Shown piece after piece: positions 1-43,521 of a stretch of 64,000 nucleotides of DNA. The first letter of the stretch is position 1, and every line of letters starts with the position of its first letter. Position numbers and translations under genes: made by a program. Source of the stretch: Nostocoides sp. F2B08 (GTDB lineage: Bacteria > Actinomycetota > Actinomycetes > Actinomycetales > Dermatophilaceae); contig NZ_WESE01000002.1 in the NCBI RefSeq assembly GCF_009184895.1, forward strand, positions 310,001 through 374,000, given 5' to 3'. Under the pieces are notes generated by a model. The model was given only the letters and a program-made list of their open reading frames with translations, made no database searches and had not been told where the DNA came from.

Positions 1-300
1 GCGACGGGCGTCCGAGGGGTCGTGCATCGTGAAGGCGATGAGGTTGCGGTCCCGCACCCAGGACTCGCGCACCTCCTCGTCGGCGAAATCCGACGCCGGC
101 ACCGGCAGACGGGGCCGGAGCCCGAGCCCGCCCAGGACCTCCAGCGCACGTTCGACGTTCTCGCGACGCAGGTCGAGCGCGATGTCCAGGTCGACGGTCG
201 TGCGAACGTGCCCGTGCAGGACCACCGCGACGCCACCCGCGACGACATACGCCACCCCGGCCTCCTCCAAGGCGGCGGCGACGTCTTGCAGGAGGGGCAC
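1..300 (-). CDS. MNT/AbiEii-type nucleotidyltransferase, C-terminus cut by window edge
   Basis: A minus-strand frame opens at a GTG (300-298) and runs off the left edge, giving about 100 residues. Residues 21-30 read AGGVAVVLHG and residues 37-39 read DLD. This is the GG...HG...D-x-D pattern of minimal nucleotidyltransferases (MNT, AbiEii and kanamycin nucleotidyltransferase-like folds), in which the two Asp residues bind the catalytic metal. In this family such proteins can be toxins or antitoxins, or stand-alone enzymes. No partner gene is visible because the 3' side lies outside the window. The start is not certain: there is no strong Shine-Dalgarno sequence upstream. It is divergent from the B3/4 gene, 38 bases away. 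Confidence 0.6.
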   Translation of the reverse strand, partial: MPLLQDVAAALEEAGVAYVVAGGVAVVLHGHVRTTVDLDIALDLRRENVERALEVLGGLGLRPRLPVPASDFADEEVRESWVRDRNLIAFTMHDPSDARR

Positions 301-338
301 GACACAAGCCTAGGCGGGCGTCCTGCTTGAATGCGGTG

Positions 339-1049
339 ATGACCGAGACCCCGAGCCATCACCTCGATTCGGCCACGGTCGACGACAGCGTCTTCGGCCT
401 GCGCCCCGACTACCGTGCCCTGCTCATCGCGGTGACCGGGATCGAGCCGGGGCCGGGGGACGAACACAGCGAGGCGCTCCTGCTCGAGGCCGAGCGGGCC
501 GCCCGCCAGACCCTCTCGTCCCGACCGCTCGAGCAGGTGCCGCACGTCGCGGCCTGGCGCGACGCATACCGGGCCTTCGGAGCCAAGCCGCAGCGGACCC
601 GCAACAGTCTCGAGGCGCTGCTGCGGCGAGCGCCCGATGGGCTGCCCCGGGTCAACAGGCTCACCGACATCTACAACGCGATCTCGGTCCTCCATCTCAT
701 CCCGCTCGGCGGCGAGGACCTCGACCGCTACGACGGTCCGCCGCGACTGACCCGCGCCACCGGTGAGGAGCCCTTCGACACGATGACCTCCGGCGAGACG
801 GTCGTCGAGCATCCCGAGCCGGGCGAGGTGGTGTGGTGCGACGATGCCGGGGTGACGTGCCGGCGGTGGAACTGGCGCCAGGCCCGGCGCACCCGGCTGC
901 ACGACGGCACGACGACCGCCCTGTTCATCCTCGACGCACTCGACCCGATGACCGACGCCGACCTCGAGGCCACCGCCGCGGACCTGATCGCACACCTGCG
1001 GCGGCTCGGGCCGACCGTGCGATCCGAGCAGCGACTGCTCCGCCGCTGA
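339..1049 (+). CDS. B3/B4 tRNA-binding domain protein
   Basis: This 236-residue protein matches the B3/4 domain found as the editing-like module of phenylalanyl-tRNA synthetase beta and also as free-standing proteins. The diagnostic stretches are the middle segment with W-RDAYRAFG-KPQRTR followed by EALLRR, and a late RRWNWRQ segment. Free-standing members are thought to act on mischarged tRNA or related substrates, but the reaction here is not shown by sequence. I chose the ATG at 339; a TTG at 327 would add four residues. It stands alone, with the next gene convergent. One copy of the CGCATAC word lies inside, at 563-569, encoding Ala-Tyr. Confidence 0.75.
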   Translation: MTETPSHHLDSATVDDSVFGLRPDYRALLIAVTGIEPGPGDEHSEALLLEAERAARQTLSSRPLEQVPHVAAWRDAYRAFGAKPQRTRNSLEALLRRAPDGLPRVNRLTDIYNAISVLHLIPLGGEDLDRYDGPPRLTRATGEEPFDTMTSGETVVEHPEPGEVVWCDDAGVTCRRWNWRQARRTRLHDGTTTALFILDALDPMTDADLEATAADLIAHLRRLGPTVRSEQRLLRR

Positions 1050-2476: not shown

Positions 2477-2911
2477 ATGACAACCACCCACCACAACGGT
2501 CGCCACATCGCGACCCCCGCGACCTCCGTTCCGATGGATCCCCTACGCACCCTCACGGTCGTGCTGCTCGCGGCCGTGGCGGTCCTGTACGCCGTCGTGT
2601 TCGCGGTCCAGCTTCCGCACCTGAGTGAGCCGGACAACCCGGCCCCGATCTACGCCGTGCTGGCCCTGGGCTACCTCGCCCTCGCGGTCACCGCCGCACG
2701 GGTCGACACGCTTCGCCTGATCTGGGTTCTCATCGGCATCCAGGTGCTGGTCGTCGCGCTGTTCGGCTGGTCCGTAGGGATGCTCTACCGCGAAGGGGAC
2801 GAGGCGTTCATCCTCGACATGCAGTGGCTCGCGGTCGCGGTCACGCTGCTCCAGGTGATCCTCATCGGGGTCCTGGCCTACCGCGGCGTCAAGGCGCGAG
2901 CGGTCAGCTGA
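2477..2911 (+). CDS. small four-helix membrane protein, function unknown
   Basis: This 144-residue protein has four predicted membrane spans: LRTLTVVLL..FAVQL, IYAVLALGYLALAV, LIWVLIGIQVLVVALFGW and LAVAVTLLQVILIGVLAY. There are no catalytic motifs, and I do not recognise the family. The start at 2477 is favoured over an upstream in-frame ATG because GAGGAGGT (2461-2468) sits eight bases before it. The 3' end overlaps the convergent thioredoxin-rhodanese gene by eight bases. Confidence 0.65.
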   Translation: MTTTHHNGRHIATPATSVPMDPLRTLTVVLLAAVAVLYAVVFAVQLPHLSEPDNPAPIYAVLALGYLALAVTAARVDTLRLIWVLIGIQVLVVALFGWSVGMLYREGDEAFILDMQWLAVAVTLLQVILIGVLAYRGVKARAVS

Positions 2912-3614
2912 CGGCGGCGTCGGTGGCCGTCGGCAAGGGGCCGACGACGATCTCGTGGCCCTCGTCGGACCATTGCGAGGTCCCGCCCATGACGGAGTAG
3001 GCCTCCACGCCGGCCCGGCGGAGAAGCTGCGTCGAGGACTGGCTGCGGTTGCCCGTCGCGCAGATGACGTAGACCGGCTCGTCCGTCGGCAGCTCGGCGG
3101 CGCGCTCGGCCACCTGACGCATCGGCATCAGGACCGCACCCGGCACATGGCCGGCGCGGTACTCCATCGGCTCCCGGACGTCGACGACCGTGCGGCCCTC
3201 GGCGTGTGCGGCGACGAAGTCGGCCTGGGACACCTCGAGGGGCTTGTCCTGCAGCGCCCGCATGGCGTCGACCTTGGCGTGGATCTCGGGCATGTCCAGG
3301 GCCTTGACCTGCTCGATGACCTGTTCGAGCGAGGAGGCCGGCAGTGCGCCCGGCTGGTTGAAGACGAGCACACCCTCGCGGAAGACCATGAGGGTCGGGA
3401 TCGACGTGATGCCTGCGGCACCCGCGAGGCCCTGCTCGGCCTCGGTGTCGACCTTGCCGAACACGACGTCGGGGTGCTTCTCCGACGCCGCCTCGTAGAC
3501 CGGGGCGAACTGGCGGCACGGGCCGCACCACGCGGCCCAGAAGTCGACGAGGACGATGTCCTCCTCGGTGACGGTCTTCTCGAACTCGGCCTGGGTGAGG
3601 TCGCGGGTGGCCAC
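2904..3614 (-). CDS. thioredoxin-rhodanese fusion protein
   Basis: This 236-residue cytoplasmic protein has two domains. Residues 1 to about 107 are a thioredoxin with the redox motif WCGPC (Cys30, Cys33) and the cis-proline segment SIPT. Residues 125-225 are a rhodanese-like domain with DVREPMEY, GHVPGA and the active loop CATGNRS, whose Cys185 would carry the persulfide. Combining a dithiol reductant and a sulfurtransferase in one chain suggests persulfide handling, with thioredoxin able to release the sulfur. The start is GTG at 3614, with AAAGGA eight bases upstream. A palindrome of the CsoR/CstR operator type lies 29 bases upstream, so control by a copper or persulfide sensor is likely. 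No such regulator is encoded in the window. Confidence 0.85.
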   Translation of the reverse strand: MATRDLTQAEFEKTVTEEDIVLVDFWAAWCGPCRQFAPVYEAASEKHPDVVFGKVDTEAEQGLAGAAGITSIPTLMVFREGVLVFNQPGALPASSLEQVIEQVKALDMPEIHAKVDAMRALQDKPLEVSQADFVAAHAEGRTVVDVREPMEYRAGHVPGAVLMPMRQVAERAAELPTDEPVYVICATGNRSQSSTQLLRRAGVEAYSVMGGTSQWSDEGHEIVVGPLPTATDAAVS

Positions 3615-3642
3615 GGGGTGTCCTTTCGGCGTGCGGGTCTAT

Positions 3643-3658
3643 ATACCCCCTAGGGTAT
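3643..3658. promoter_or_regulatory. CsoR/CstR-like operator palindrome
   Basis: The sequence ATACCCCCTAGGGTAT forms an inverted repeat with arms ATACCC (3643-3648) and GGGTAT (3653-3658) around CCTA. This GC-centred, AT-edged pattern matches published CsoR-family operators. Its place directly upstream of a thioredoxin-rhodanese gene favours the persulfide-sensing CstR branch over copper-sensing CsoR, but the site alone cannot decide between them. Confidence 0.65.
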
Positions 3659-3677
3659 CAGAGCGCACGTCGGGCGG

Positions 3678-4727
3678 TCACGTCGAGATGTGCGCGAGCA
3701 GCGCCGCCCGGAACTCCTCCGGCCGCTCGAGGTGCGCGGAGTGGCCCGCGCCGTCGAGGGCGAGCTCGCGGTATGCGCCACCCGCCTGCGCGTACGCCTC
3801 GAGGACGTCACGGGTCTGGGTGACCATCGGCTGGGGCGGGGCGACCTCCTCGCCCGGCCAGCCGGGCACGACGCCGTGCTTGCCGAGGGTGTTCAGGTCG
3901 AAGAACGACTCGTCGCCGACGATCGCGTCCGCGGTGCCGTGCACCCACAGGACCGGCGGCTTCGGGTCGACGTCGACGATCCCGCTGACGTCGAAGTGCA
4001 CCGGACTCATCGTGTTGAGCACGCCGCGGTCGCCCGCCGCGAACCCGGGCCAGGAGTCCGACGCCCGCGCGTCGCCCGGGTAGTTGCCCTCGCCGGTCGC
4101 CGTCGTGAGCATCGAGGTGACCCACACGTCCTCGTGCTCGCTCGTGAAGCCCGGTGCCACGTACGTGCCGCGGTAGACCTGGACCGGGCAGGTCGGGGCC
4201 TCGTCCGAGCGGTCCCCGGCGGCCAGCCGTGCGACGAAGTCGGGGTTGGCTCCGCCGCCGCCGGTCCCGGCACCGTCGGCGGTGAGCAGCGAGCCGTCCC
4301 GACGCGTCCCGCCGAACCCGTAGGGCGAGACCGGCGAGACGAGGGTGAGCGATGCGACGAGCTCCGGCCGGTCGAGGAGCAGCTGCATCGCCACTCCGCC
4401 GCCCATCGACCATCCCACGACGTGGGCCCGGCCGATCCCCATGGCGTCGAGGACGGCGGCGACATCGTCGGAGAAGTCGCGCACCCCACGGGTCGCGTCG
4501 ACCGGCGCGGTCTCGCTCTCACCGAACCCGCGAAGGTCGATCGCGACCGACCGCACCGGCAGCTCGAGCATCGTCGGCTGCCAGAACAGCGACGAGGAGA
4601 CGTTGCCGTGGATGAAGACGACCGGGGTGTCGTCTCCGCCGTCCACGCGACCGTCGCGCTCGAGCACATGCGCGTCGTAGCGGTCAGTGCGGACACGGGT
4701 GCTGCTGATGCCGGGGAAGACGGTCAT
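3678..4727 (-). CDS. alpha/beta hydrolase
   Basis: This 349-residue alpha/beta-hydrolase has the oxyanion HGN segment (VVFIHGNVSS), DLRGFGES, the nucleophile elbow GWSMGG, and a C-terminal GAGHSAHLE supplying the catalytic His. Compared with compact hydrolases it carries a long lid insertion after the nucleophile (the GTGGGGANPD region). The start at 4727 is set by AGGAGG just upstream and by the four-base ATGA overlap with the preceding gene. It is the last gene of the long liv-acs operon, so its substrate may be an ester or lactone of the imported acid; this is inference. Confidence 0.8.
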   Translation of the reverse strand: MTVFPGISSTRVRTDRYDAHVLERDGRVDGGDDTPVVFIHGNVSSSLFWQPTMLELPVRSVAIDLRGFGESETAPVDATRGVRDFSDDVAAVLDAMGIGRAHVVGWSMGGGVAMQLLLDRPELVASLTLVSPVSPYGFGGTRRDGSLLTADGAGTGGGGANPDFVARLAAGDRSDEAPTCPVQVYRGTYVAPGFTSEHEDVWVTSMLTTATGEGNYPGDARASDSWPGFAAGDRGVLNTMSPVHFDVSGIVDVDPKPPVLWVHGTADAIVGDESFFDLNTLGKHGVVPGWPGEEVAPPQPMVTQTRDVLEAYAQAGGAYRELALDGAGHSAHLERPEEFRAALLAHIST

Positions 4728-41629: not shown

Positions 41630-43090
41630 TCAGTGCCACATCTTCCTCGGCTTCTCGCGCATGATCTGCTCGACGGCGCCGGACAGGGACTTGCCACGCA
41701 GCCCGCCCAGTTTGGCCTCGACCTCTTCGAGGTCCAGGCGGACCTCGGCATCCTCGGTCCGTTCACTCAGAGTCCGCGCCAGACGCACTGCACGGCCGAT
41801 GTCCTTCTCGGTCAGCCTCTTACGCTGGTTCCCGCCGAGCTCGGCGGCACGCCCGATCAGGCCGGCGGCGTCCGTCATCAACTCCTCGTCACCCATCAGG
41901 GTCGTGAGCACCGGCCCCTGCACACGCTCGAAGAGGGCGATCCACCGACGGCCGGCCTCGGTCGTGGCGAGGAGCTCGTCACGCACCGCCCGCAGCTGGT
42001 CGACCTCTGCGTCGGTGTCGAAGAAGCGCGCCCCGATGAGCTCGATGGCGCAGACGCACTGCTGCATCAGCGCGATCATGCCCGACTTGGCGTCCCGTTT
42101 GACCAGAGTGGGGTCGGCCGGCTGGAACGAGTCCTGGGCGCTCCCAGTGGACGGTCCGGTCTCGAACGTGAAGCCATAGGTCTTGCGCAGTGCGGGATCG
42201 GCGATGTGCCGGCTGTAGACGTAGTCGCTCTGGGTGCCGGTCGTGGCATAGAGCCCGATGCCCGGCTCGCTGACGTAGACCCGGCCCCGCACCGCCGCGA
42301 TCGCGTCACGGATCCGGAGTCCGACCGTCTCGAACCGCTGCCGGTCGCGTGCCGCGATGTACTCCTGGTAGCCGGCCTGGGGGATCGGCGCGCAGGTCCC
42401 GTCCGCGAGGGTCGTGAAGCGCTTCGACGGGTCGGTCGTCTGGCTCGGCGCGTGCCCCCACGGCCAGAGGATCAGCTCGGAGAACGAGTGCACGTCGGCG
42501 AAGCAGTCGATGCGACGGGTGTCGAGGAGGTGCTTGATGTTGCGCGTCTCGGGCTCGCTGAAGGCCGACGGGCCGGCAAAGACGTCACTACACGGCGAGC
42601 ACGACGTCTGGCCCTGCGTCACGCCCCAGAGGACAGCGAAGTTGCGGTTCAGGTCGACGCCGTCGCACGTCGTCCTCGGGTTGTCGCGTCGGTTCTTGCG
42701 CCACATGGCGTCGGTGGTCATGCAGTGGTTCCGGCCGTCCGGGTTCATGCACGGCACGAGCCAGAGGTCGAGGGACTCGAGGATCAGCCGGATGTCGGAT
42801 GCCGCCCAGCGCTTCCCGCCGTAGACGATGTCCGTGCCGTTCGCGTGGCTGACGAAGAGGTCGACGGCGAGCTCGATGATCGCGTCGGGGTTCATCAGCT
42901 CGCGGGCGTGGGTGCCGCCCACGAGCAGGACGCCGCGCCGTTCGTCGCCCCCACCCGCGCGCAGGCGCAGGGCGTAGACCGTGCGCCCCTCGACCGACTG
43001 CTCCGGCAGTGCGATCCGGGTGAAGTAGGACGGGAACCAGGTGGCCAGGAGGTTCCCCAGCGAGTCGAGCTGAGCCACGGTGCGGTACAT
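41630..43090 (-). CDS. M14 zinc carboxypeptidase without signal peptide
   Basis: This 486-residue M14 peptidase has zinc ligands His61 and Glu64 (GTHARELMNP) and His201 (DVHSFSELILWPWG), the Arg/Asn segment CDGVDLNRNF, and catalytic Glu310 (FTFETGP). Unlike secreted relatives it has no signal peptide or prosegment. It also carries a C-terminal helical extension of about 140 residues (MREKPRKMWH end) with no match I know. Its ATG shares one base with the stop of a small upstream gene that may supply the missing N-terminal part. The export route, or a cytoplasmic role, is open. Confidence 0.8.
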   Translation of the reverse strand: MYRTVAQLDSLGNLLATWFPSYFTRIALPEQSVEGRTVYALRLRAGGGDERRGVLLVGGTHARELMNPDAIIELAVDLFVSHANGTDIVYGGKRWAASDIRLILESLDLWLVPCMNPDGRNHCMTTDAMWRKNRRDNPRTTCDGVDLNRNFAVLWGVTQGQTSCSPCSDVFAGPSAFSEPETRNIKHLLDTRRIDCFADVHSFSELILWPWGHAPSQTTDPSKRFTTLADGTCAPIPQAGYQEYIAARDRQRFETVGLRIRDAIAAVRGRVYVSEPGIGLYATTGTQSDYVYSRHIADPALRKTYGFTFETGPSTGSAQDSFQPADPTLVKRDAKSGMIALMQQCVCAIELIGARFFDTDAEVDQLRAVRDELLATTEAGRRWIALFERVQGPVLTTLMGDEELMTDAAGLIGRAAELGGNQRKRLTEKDIGRAVRLARTLSERTEDAEVRLDLEEVEAKLGGLRGKSLSGAVEQIMREKPRKMWH

Positions 43091-43425
43091 CAGGACCCCT
43101 CCTCGCGCGGAATCCCCTCGACCATCTCCTCGAGCCACCGCACCGCCTCGTCGTCGTCGAGGACGAGGCCGGGGTCGAGCGGCGCCTGCCGCAGCGCGCC
43201 GTGGACGTGCACCTCGTACCCGTCGTCGAGAAGCCGCGCCAGCTCGTCGGCGCTCACGAGGACCCGGACGTCGCCGCGCGGGTCCGGGACCCGGTCCAGG
43301 TCGAGATCCGCGACTCTGGCGAGAGCTCGCGCTCTCGGTCCGGCGTGCACCGTCGCCTCGAACCGCAGTGGGTGGTCGTCCGTCCCTGCGGGGGCCTTCC
43401 TCGATGTCCTGGCCATTCTCATCGC
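43090..43425 (-). CDS. small protein coupled to M14 peptidase, prosegment-like
   Basis: This 111-residue protein starts at ATG 43425 after GGGAGG. The sequence LRFEATVHAGPRARALARVADLDLDRVPDPRGDVRVLVSADELARLLDDGYEVHVHGALRQ resembles the N-terminal prosegment/linker found before the catalytic domain of many secreted M14 carboxypeptidases, where a similar ADELARLLDDGYEV stretch occurs. Here it is a separate gene, coupled to the peptidase by a one-base TGATG overlap. A chaperone-like or inhibitory role is inference. Confidence 0.55.
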   Translation of the reverse strand, partial: AMRMARTSRKAPAGTDDHPLRFEATVHAGPRARALARVADLDLDRVPDPRGDVRVLVSADELARLLDDGYEVHVHGALRQAPLDPGLVLDDDEAVRWLEEMVEGIPREEGS

Positions 43426-43521
43426 CTCCCGCCCTCCGACGATCCTCCGGCCGGGATGGGGTGTCAACCGGAACGGCTCGTCGGGGTGCCATCGGCCGGC
43501 CGTCGGGGCGATACTTCGTTG

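Follow-up and report, generated by a model that had tools for sequence, protein, structure and literature searches.

An M14 carboxypeptidase and its probable prosegment encoded by two overlapping genes in Nostocoides sp. F2B08

Prosegments are cis-acting parts of secreted carboxypeptidases, and in the pancreatic procarboxypeptidases they are mainly inhibitory. Free-standing propeptide inhibitors of the I9 type inhibit their cognate protease; protealysin is a peptidase of family M4. SUB1-ProM of Plasmodium is, according to the available part of its report, a stand-alone propeptide-like inhibitor of its cognate protease whose gene lies adjacent to protease genes (PMC6993865). The protealysin-emfourin operon of Serratia, as far as the accessible text describes it, encodes an intracellular metallopeptidase together with a small inhibitor that binds to the active-site region and represents a novel inhibitor family, emfourin (PMC9505478). 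These two systems may be regarded as the closest functional parallels of the locus described here; neither belongs to the same family.

The window, i.e. the whole stretch of 64,000 nucleotides analysed here (contig NZ_WESE01000002.1 of Nostocoides sp. F2B08, positions 310,001 to 374,000), carries on its minus strand a gene for an M14 zinc carboxypeptidase of 486 amino acids without evident signal peptide (41630..43090, identified by open reading frame and Pfam match) and, upstream of it, a small gene (43090..43422, minus) for a protein which sequence, homology and fold prediction characterize as an M14 prosegment-like protein encoded in trans. We consider it probable that this pair is a procarboxypeptidase broken into two genes, with the small protein as an M14 prosegment provided in trans. 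The pancreatic-type procarboxypeptidases (M14A; PDB entries 1pca, 1nsa, 4p10) share with the pair the catalytic domain and, judging from the model of a fused homologue, a β-α-β-β-α-β prosegment in the zymogen position. Unlike these zymogens, in which both parts form one polypeptide, the prosegment of the window would have its own gene, and the window family has neither an evident signal peptide nor a Pfam prosegment match. With SUB1-ProM the small protein shares its stand-alone, propeptide-like character and the neighbourhood of a protease gene; the Plasmodium enzyme, however, is, as far as described, a eukaryotic subtilase that keeps its own propeptide, whereas the free domain of the window would replace it. 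Similarly, protealysin-emfourin resembles the pair as an intracellular metallopeptidase co-encoded with a small protein, yet the partner in the window would be the prodomain of the enzyme family itself. No description of a separately encoded M14 prosegment was found in the open-access literature, searched by titles and the beginnings of abstracts, with subscription journals mostly outside this scope. From this locus it appears that actinobacteria, proteobacteria and other lineages possess an intracellular carboxypeptidase system which has apparently not been described.

The preliminary description of this DNA had listed a separate small gene of 111 residues that ends one base before the peptidase gene. 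The separate gene stands, but its start at 43425 does not, as there is no start codon at this position; the protein has 110 residues if translation begins at the ATG at 43422 and 108 if it begins at the ATG at 43416. The latter is better spaced from a Shine-Dalgarno-like GGGAGG (43425..43430, minus), which lies 8 nt before it. Nor is there a gap between the genes: the stop codon TGA of the small gene (43092-43090) shares one base with the ATG of the M14 gene in the sequence TGATG (43088..43092, minus). Translational coupling of both genes is expected from such a stop-start overlap, and the small protein would then be made just before the peptidase. Promoter-like or terminator-like matches were not found at the window locus. 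Five neighbouring genes in the window, encoding according to Pfam an FMO-like oxidoreductase, a GXWXG/DUF4334 protein, a YCII-like protein, an alcohol dehydrogenase and a DUF302 protein, have no evident link to the pair.

The peptidase matched Pfam Peptidase_M14 (PF00246) at E=1.3e-51 with 176 bits, far above the cut-off of 21.6 bits, and carboxypeptidases B, A4 and T are its nearest solved relatives by sequence. The catalytic residues are intact, as had been noted before: H61, E64 and H201 (zinc ligands), R120, N148, R149, Y281 and E310 (general base) are all present, and these eight positions are identical in 81-84 of the 84 aligned family rows. The roles given here to the zinc site HxxE...H, the Arg/Asn carboxylate pocket, the Tyr and the Glu base are those that we assume for M14 residues in general. 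Sequence and family alignment place H61 and E64 in the HARE motif (42899..42910, minus), the third zinc ligand H201 at 42488..42490 (minus), N148-R149, presumably the residues that bind the substrate carboxylate, at 42644..42649 (minus) and the general base E310 at 42161..42163 (minus). The floor of the S1' pocket is S288 (42227..42229, minus, by alignment), which we take to be position 255 in carboxypeptidase A numbering. Asp at this floor is a trait of carboxypeptidase B and was found in 61 of 84 rows; Ser was found in 16 of 84, including the window and 14 of the 16 close loci L050-L065. Because Ser occupies this position in the window and most close loci and Asp in most of the family, the substrate preference may have shifted.

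Likewise, no export signal was evident in the peptidase, in agreement with the preliminary description. Alignment with mature mammalian carboxypeptidase A pairs residue 2 of the peptidase with residue 12 of that enzyme, and inspection of both N-termini of the window pair revealed no evident signal peptide. For the relatives, the most hydrophobic 11-residue stretch near the N-terminus was determined with a simple scale. This peak reached at most 1.77 in the 72 split M14 proteins, their small partners and the nine fused members, compared with 2.02-2.81 in six M14 controls with signal-like N-termini; the controls were hand-picked, the scan was untrained, and the start codons of split genes, here as in the alignment with fused proteins, were guessed from the start of the match. 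The scan suggests that split and fused members alike lack signal peptides. As it has no evident export signal, the window peptidase is probably cytosolic, and its substrates may then be the C-termini of cytosolic peptides or proteins, which it would trim.

Across 97 genomes including that of the window, only one (G015) contained another full-length orthologue of the peptidase (55% identity). It is preceded by a small gene whose product is 45.6% identical over 90 residues to the window small protein and which shows the same overlap. Blast-type searches with the small protein in these 97 genomes were noisy, 73 genomes being listed at E<=1; matches below 1e-4 came only from the window genome and G015, together with a short match at 9e-5 in G059. 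Plasmids provided 25 records with a related peptidase, seven of which were opened. A small ORF overlaps or abuts the peptidase start on the plasmids of Caballeronia and Streptomyces BHT-5-2, three Paraburkholderia plasmids have the equivalent domain within the peptidase polypeptide, and the remaining two records contain other M14 types.

For a broader census, a scan of species genomes confirmed 212 relatives, of which the best 80 were kept; together with L006, L043 and L046 they make up 83 loci (about 81 independent ones, as L006 equals L062 in sequence and L119 and L121 look near-identical), and their upstream regions were scored with three small-domain profiles. The small domain was present at the peptidase in 81 of the 83 loci, as a small ORF just upstream in 72 and fused in frame in nine, proportions that describe the close subfamily only, since the 80 loci are the best of 212 relatives. 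The two loci without it are truncated, with a match starting only at peptidase residue 152 (L066), or begin at a contig edge (L129). As 33 of the 83 loci had served as profile seeds, and wrong-frame ORFs had been removed by eye from the seeds of one profile, the 50 non-seed loci were counted separately: 48 have the small domain, one of the 50 (L006) being a copy of a seed. One split assignment is weak (L081, E=0.02). Other ORFs of the same 83 loci gave a best E of 0.27, except for one further prodomain ORF in L129. This stand-alone ORF of a Blastocatellia MAG (L129 1902-2153) lies just after the family M14 gene and suggests a tandem arrangement.

All 17 intact close loci (L006, L050-L065) possess the one-base stop-start overlap. 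The same split, with conserved protein and overlap, in several genera and two phyla, and further splits elsewhere in the tree contradict the reading that the split is a frameshift or a sequencing error or that the small ORF is non-functional. The GC-rich sequence with its many spurious ORFs and one visibly decayed Streptomyces pair are what this reading has in its favour, and we regard its probability as practically negligible.

The 295 Streptomyces genomes searched gave a similar picture; here, as in the other whole-genome searches, only part of the first-look candidates was scored (five peptidase candidates and 16 or 17 small-domain candidates in each genome). The window peptidase matched 16 loci in 15 genomes at E<=1e-40, the Streptomyces-type small profile matched 15 genomes, and the window-type profile added one. 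At all 16 strong M14 loci the small domain is directly upstream, split in 15 and fused in frame in one (G417). At the genome level, co-occurrence of small domain and M14 peptidase gave a Fisher p of ~3e-24, a value that ignores relatedness. A single small match lacked a strong M14 counterpart, and it belongs to a decayed pair in G530. In this copy (L140 about 3170-4030, minus) both genes are broken, with pieces in different frames or interrupted matches, which is consistent with joint loss of the small gene and the peptidase gene. Thus the small gene and the M14 gene are paired far beyond chance, and the co-occurrence of both genes across genomes, named earlier as a way to examine their connection, was borne out by the 81 of 83 census loci and the 16 of 16 strong Streptomyces matches.

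A wider conserved operon did not emerge: crude neighbour clustering was swamped by spurious antisense ORFs, and Pfam, applied to ten proteins in or close to six loci, identified unrelated neighbours. A viral or phage origin was considered and rejected, as a scan of viral contigs confirmed no relative and a phage collection gave no match.

Kinship between the small protein and M14 proteins, which the preliminary description had proposed from a resemblance to the N-terminal part of secreted M14 enzymes, was supported by profile comparison. With hhalign, the window-type small profile scored 33.2 (probability 78) against the fused N-terminal domains, and the Streptomyces-type profile 88 (probability 98.6); the maxima of 100 column shuffles were 14.3 and 14.2, respectively. 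The two split groups compared directly scored 28.8 (probability 57; shuffle maximum 16.5), whereas an earlier comparison with smaller alignments had given a probability of 3, which was not significant. Thus, the fused group links the two split groups. Five positions are nearly invariant in Streptomyces-type small proteins (V78, G79, R83, P91, G93), all located in the C-terminal tail and none in the globular domain; the window-type group lacks this motif.

When 296 actinobacterial genomes were searched with the Streptomyces-type profile, there were three matches at E<=0.001, which further supports the kinship: one was a small gene, and the other two fell in the N-terminal regions of large proteins with an M14 domain of their own. 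One of these large proteins, of 840 residues, is encoded in the window genome itself (G000:C2). It has a signal-like N-terminus and may be compared with exported bacterial M14 enzymes: the N-terminal domain is homologous, but there it resides in cis behind a signal-peptide-like N-terminus. In both exported-looking proteins the matched domain does not adjoin the M14 domain but precedes it by ~270 residues. Of the two outcomes that the preliminary description had named as refuting its reading, a small protein unrelated to M14 proteins and homologues in which the genes never co-occur, neither was observed.

Databases of known families contributed little to the assignment. Pfam Propep_M14, which we take to be PF02244, was absent among matches at E<=1 in the 25, 11 and 16 members scanned. 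Pfam and NCBIfam searches with the small protein returned sub-threshold, unrelated names only, no Pfam family covering the small domain above its cut-off, and a PDB sequence search with the small-domain profiles retrieved no procarboxypeptidase and nothing else relevant. The prosegment assignment would thus make sense of a small protein that lies outside the reach of the Pfam models.

As a proxy for a complex of the two proteins, an AlphaFold2 model was computed for a natural fused homologue of 459 amino acids from a Desulfomonile MAG (L117), using a 27-row alignment. The model (mean pLDDT 81.6, pTM 0.85) has an N-terminal β-α-β-β-α-β domain. Foldseek ranks 1-15 (13 PDB entries) were zymogen-length chains of carboxypeptidases A, B and U, the top chains having 392-404 residues and being aligned over 466-475 columns, and the best VIA row was procarboxypeptidase U (Z 33.3, rmsd 3.7, 372 residues, model 2..458). 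Thus, the N-terminal domain is predicted to sit roughly in the zymogen position. This placement is approximate, since chains with the catalytic domain only reached nearly equal VIA scores (Z up to 31.9) at lower rmsd (~2.5, compared with 3.4-4.1 for full zymogens), and AlphaFold2 may have reproduced a placement learned from known zymogens. Aligned with L117, split M14 proteins start opposite its residue 99-100, some 10-15 residues into the mature part of the enzyme, whose beginning VIA sets at about model residue 84.

The window small protein was modelled with a pLDDT of 82.6 and a pTM of 0.58, again as β-α-β-β-α-β, followed by a C-terminal helix. The predicted ferredoxin-like core comprises residues 17-76 of 108 (43189..43368, minus) and the helix residues 88-100 (43117..43155, minus); the helix may correspond to the connecting segment of procarboxypeptidases. 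The protein's own fold match to prosegments is weak: Foldseek found none at E<=0.001, its best match being to an unrelated protein (E=0.042), and procarboxypeptidases occupy the top two VIA rows (Z 5.1 and 5.0) but score no better than unrelated ferredoxin-like folds, 10 of 50 rows being carboxypeptidase zymogen entries.

Homology, pairing, the split/fused changes and the intact active site were observed computationally; we infer that the split partner packs on the peptidase as the prodomain does in the fused homologue. The small protein would fold as a ferredoxin-like domain with C-terminal helix, cover the active-site funnel of the carboxypeptidase and keep the enzyme latent, and it would probably also aid its folding, acting as an inhibitor and/or a folding chaperone. 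As no peptide bond connects prosegment and enzyme, activation would proceed without zymogen cleavage, possibly when the small protein is released, outcompeted or degraded. Potato and leech carboxypeptidase inhibitors insert their tails into the active-site funnel. A split prosegment has a free C-terminus, which may insert in the same way; such a reversible zymogen without cleavage could pass through repeated rounds of activation and inactivation within the cell and allow bacteria and archaea to trim protein C-termini in a regulated way, an extension that we regard as doubtful.

That the small protein is a chaperone only, needed for folding and then leaving without being a standing inhibitor, appears unlikely, as the fused model, with its prodomain lying on the catalytic domain much as in a zymogen, suggests occlusion and pancreatic prosegments are, as stated above, mainly inhibitory. 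The stop-start overlap, on the other side, would suit co-translational folding. Moreover, prodomains can be folding helpers in subtilases, as stated in the available parts of PMC6993865 and PMC10580911.

An M14 tree was calculated from 64 family members and five outgroup rows (69 in total, rows of >=88% identity dropped) by a quick search with SH-aLRT support only; long branches were flagged, and the outgroup did not form one side of a branch. The split/fused state requires five changes on this tree, at least three of them being forced by well-supported branches. The window clade comprises 12 rows, all of them split (support 100), and its sister group consists of fused proteins of Nocardia and Amycolatopsis (support 93). 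Domain and enzyme have thus remained associated even though the peptide bond between them has not been kept, and the changes may be seen as natural experiments on the need for a covalent prosegment link. What recurs here is a prosegment module with an overlapping gene of its own, next to an enzyme that has no evident export signal.

One outgroup row, from the Sinorhizobium meliloti plasmid psymA (L049 about 2770-3909), was labelled 'secreted' although it has no signal-like N-terminus, and it was not used for rooting. This more distant M14 protein seems to contain an extra N-terminal domain of ~80 residues, which resembles the fused prodomain by eye.

The peptidase of Sphingomonas cavernae (L065) is 66% identical to that of the window and falls inside the window clade, which is mostly actinobacterial; this makes transfer between phyla probable. 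This near relative in another phylum and the patchy distribution in Streptomyces (15 of 295 genomes) would also fit an effector-immunity pair, in which rival cells would receive the peptidase and the small protein would shield the producer. Such a role was proposed for protealysin and emfourin, according to the available part of the report, and the window pair would follow the same logic, with a metallopeptidase inside the cell and a partner encoded alongside it (PMC9505478). We nevertheless judge it improbable: in several lineages the partner and the peptidase form one polypeptide, an unusual arrangement for an immunity protein, and no shared secretion or delivery neighbours appeared in the crude clustering and the Pfam spot checks, a thin test.

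The C-terminal extension of about 140 residues, described as unusual before, is real and common to the close orthologues. It covers about residues 345-486 (41633..42058, minus) and can be seen faintly in the fused Nocardia and Amycolatopsis proteins (20% identity). Part of it is CFI-box-CTERM-like (NF041770), the window extension scoring 21.2 bits, below the cut-off of 40; this family was listed at E<=1 for nine of 13 extensions, with a best E of 1.7e-5.

Other members of the family have further added domains. M14 peptidases of Caballeronia (L043 2995-5883) and Paraburkholderia (L075 6001-8892) end in a von Willebrand factor A domain, and a member from a Deltaproteobacteria MAG has a HYDIN-like Ig domain as its C-terminal part. 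Arthrobacter humicola combines the M14 domain with an S8 subtilase in one ORF of 1093 amino acids (L060 6001-9279), with a split prodomain gene upstream.

C-terminal add-ons of the von Willebrand factor A, subtilase and CFI-box-like kinds suggest recruitment to particular sites, and the small protein might accordingly be imagined as a targeting adaptor, which takes the peptidase to a non-classical export route or a cellular site and does not control its activity. This seems very improbable to us, given that neither protein has a hydrophobic, export-like N-terminus and that prosegment homology accounts for the partner more simply.

Directly upstream of the fused prodomain-M14 gene on a plasmid of Paraburkholderia largidicola (L047 2225-3538), a trypsin-like protein with PDZ domains is encoded. 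In Streptomyces G417 the ORF with the fused domains (L141 1-3333) is very long; its N-terminal part is extended, and WHG-type segments are repeated at its C-terminus.
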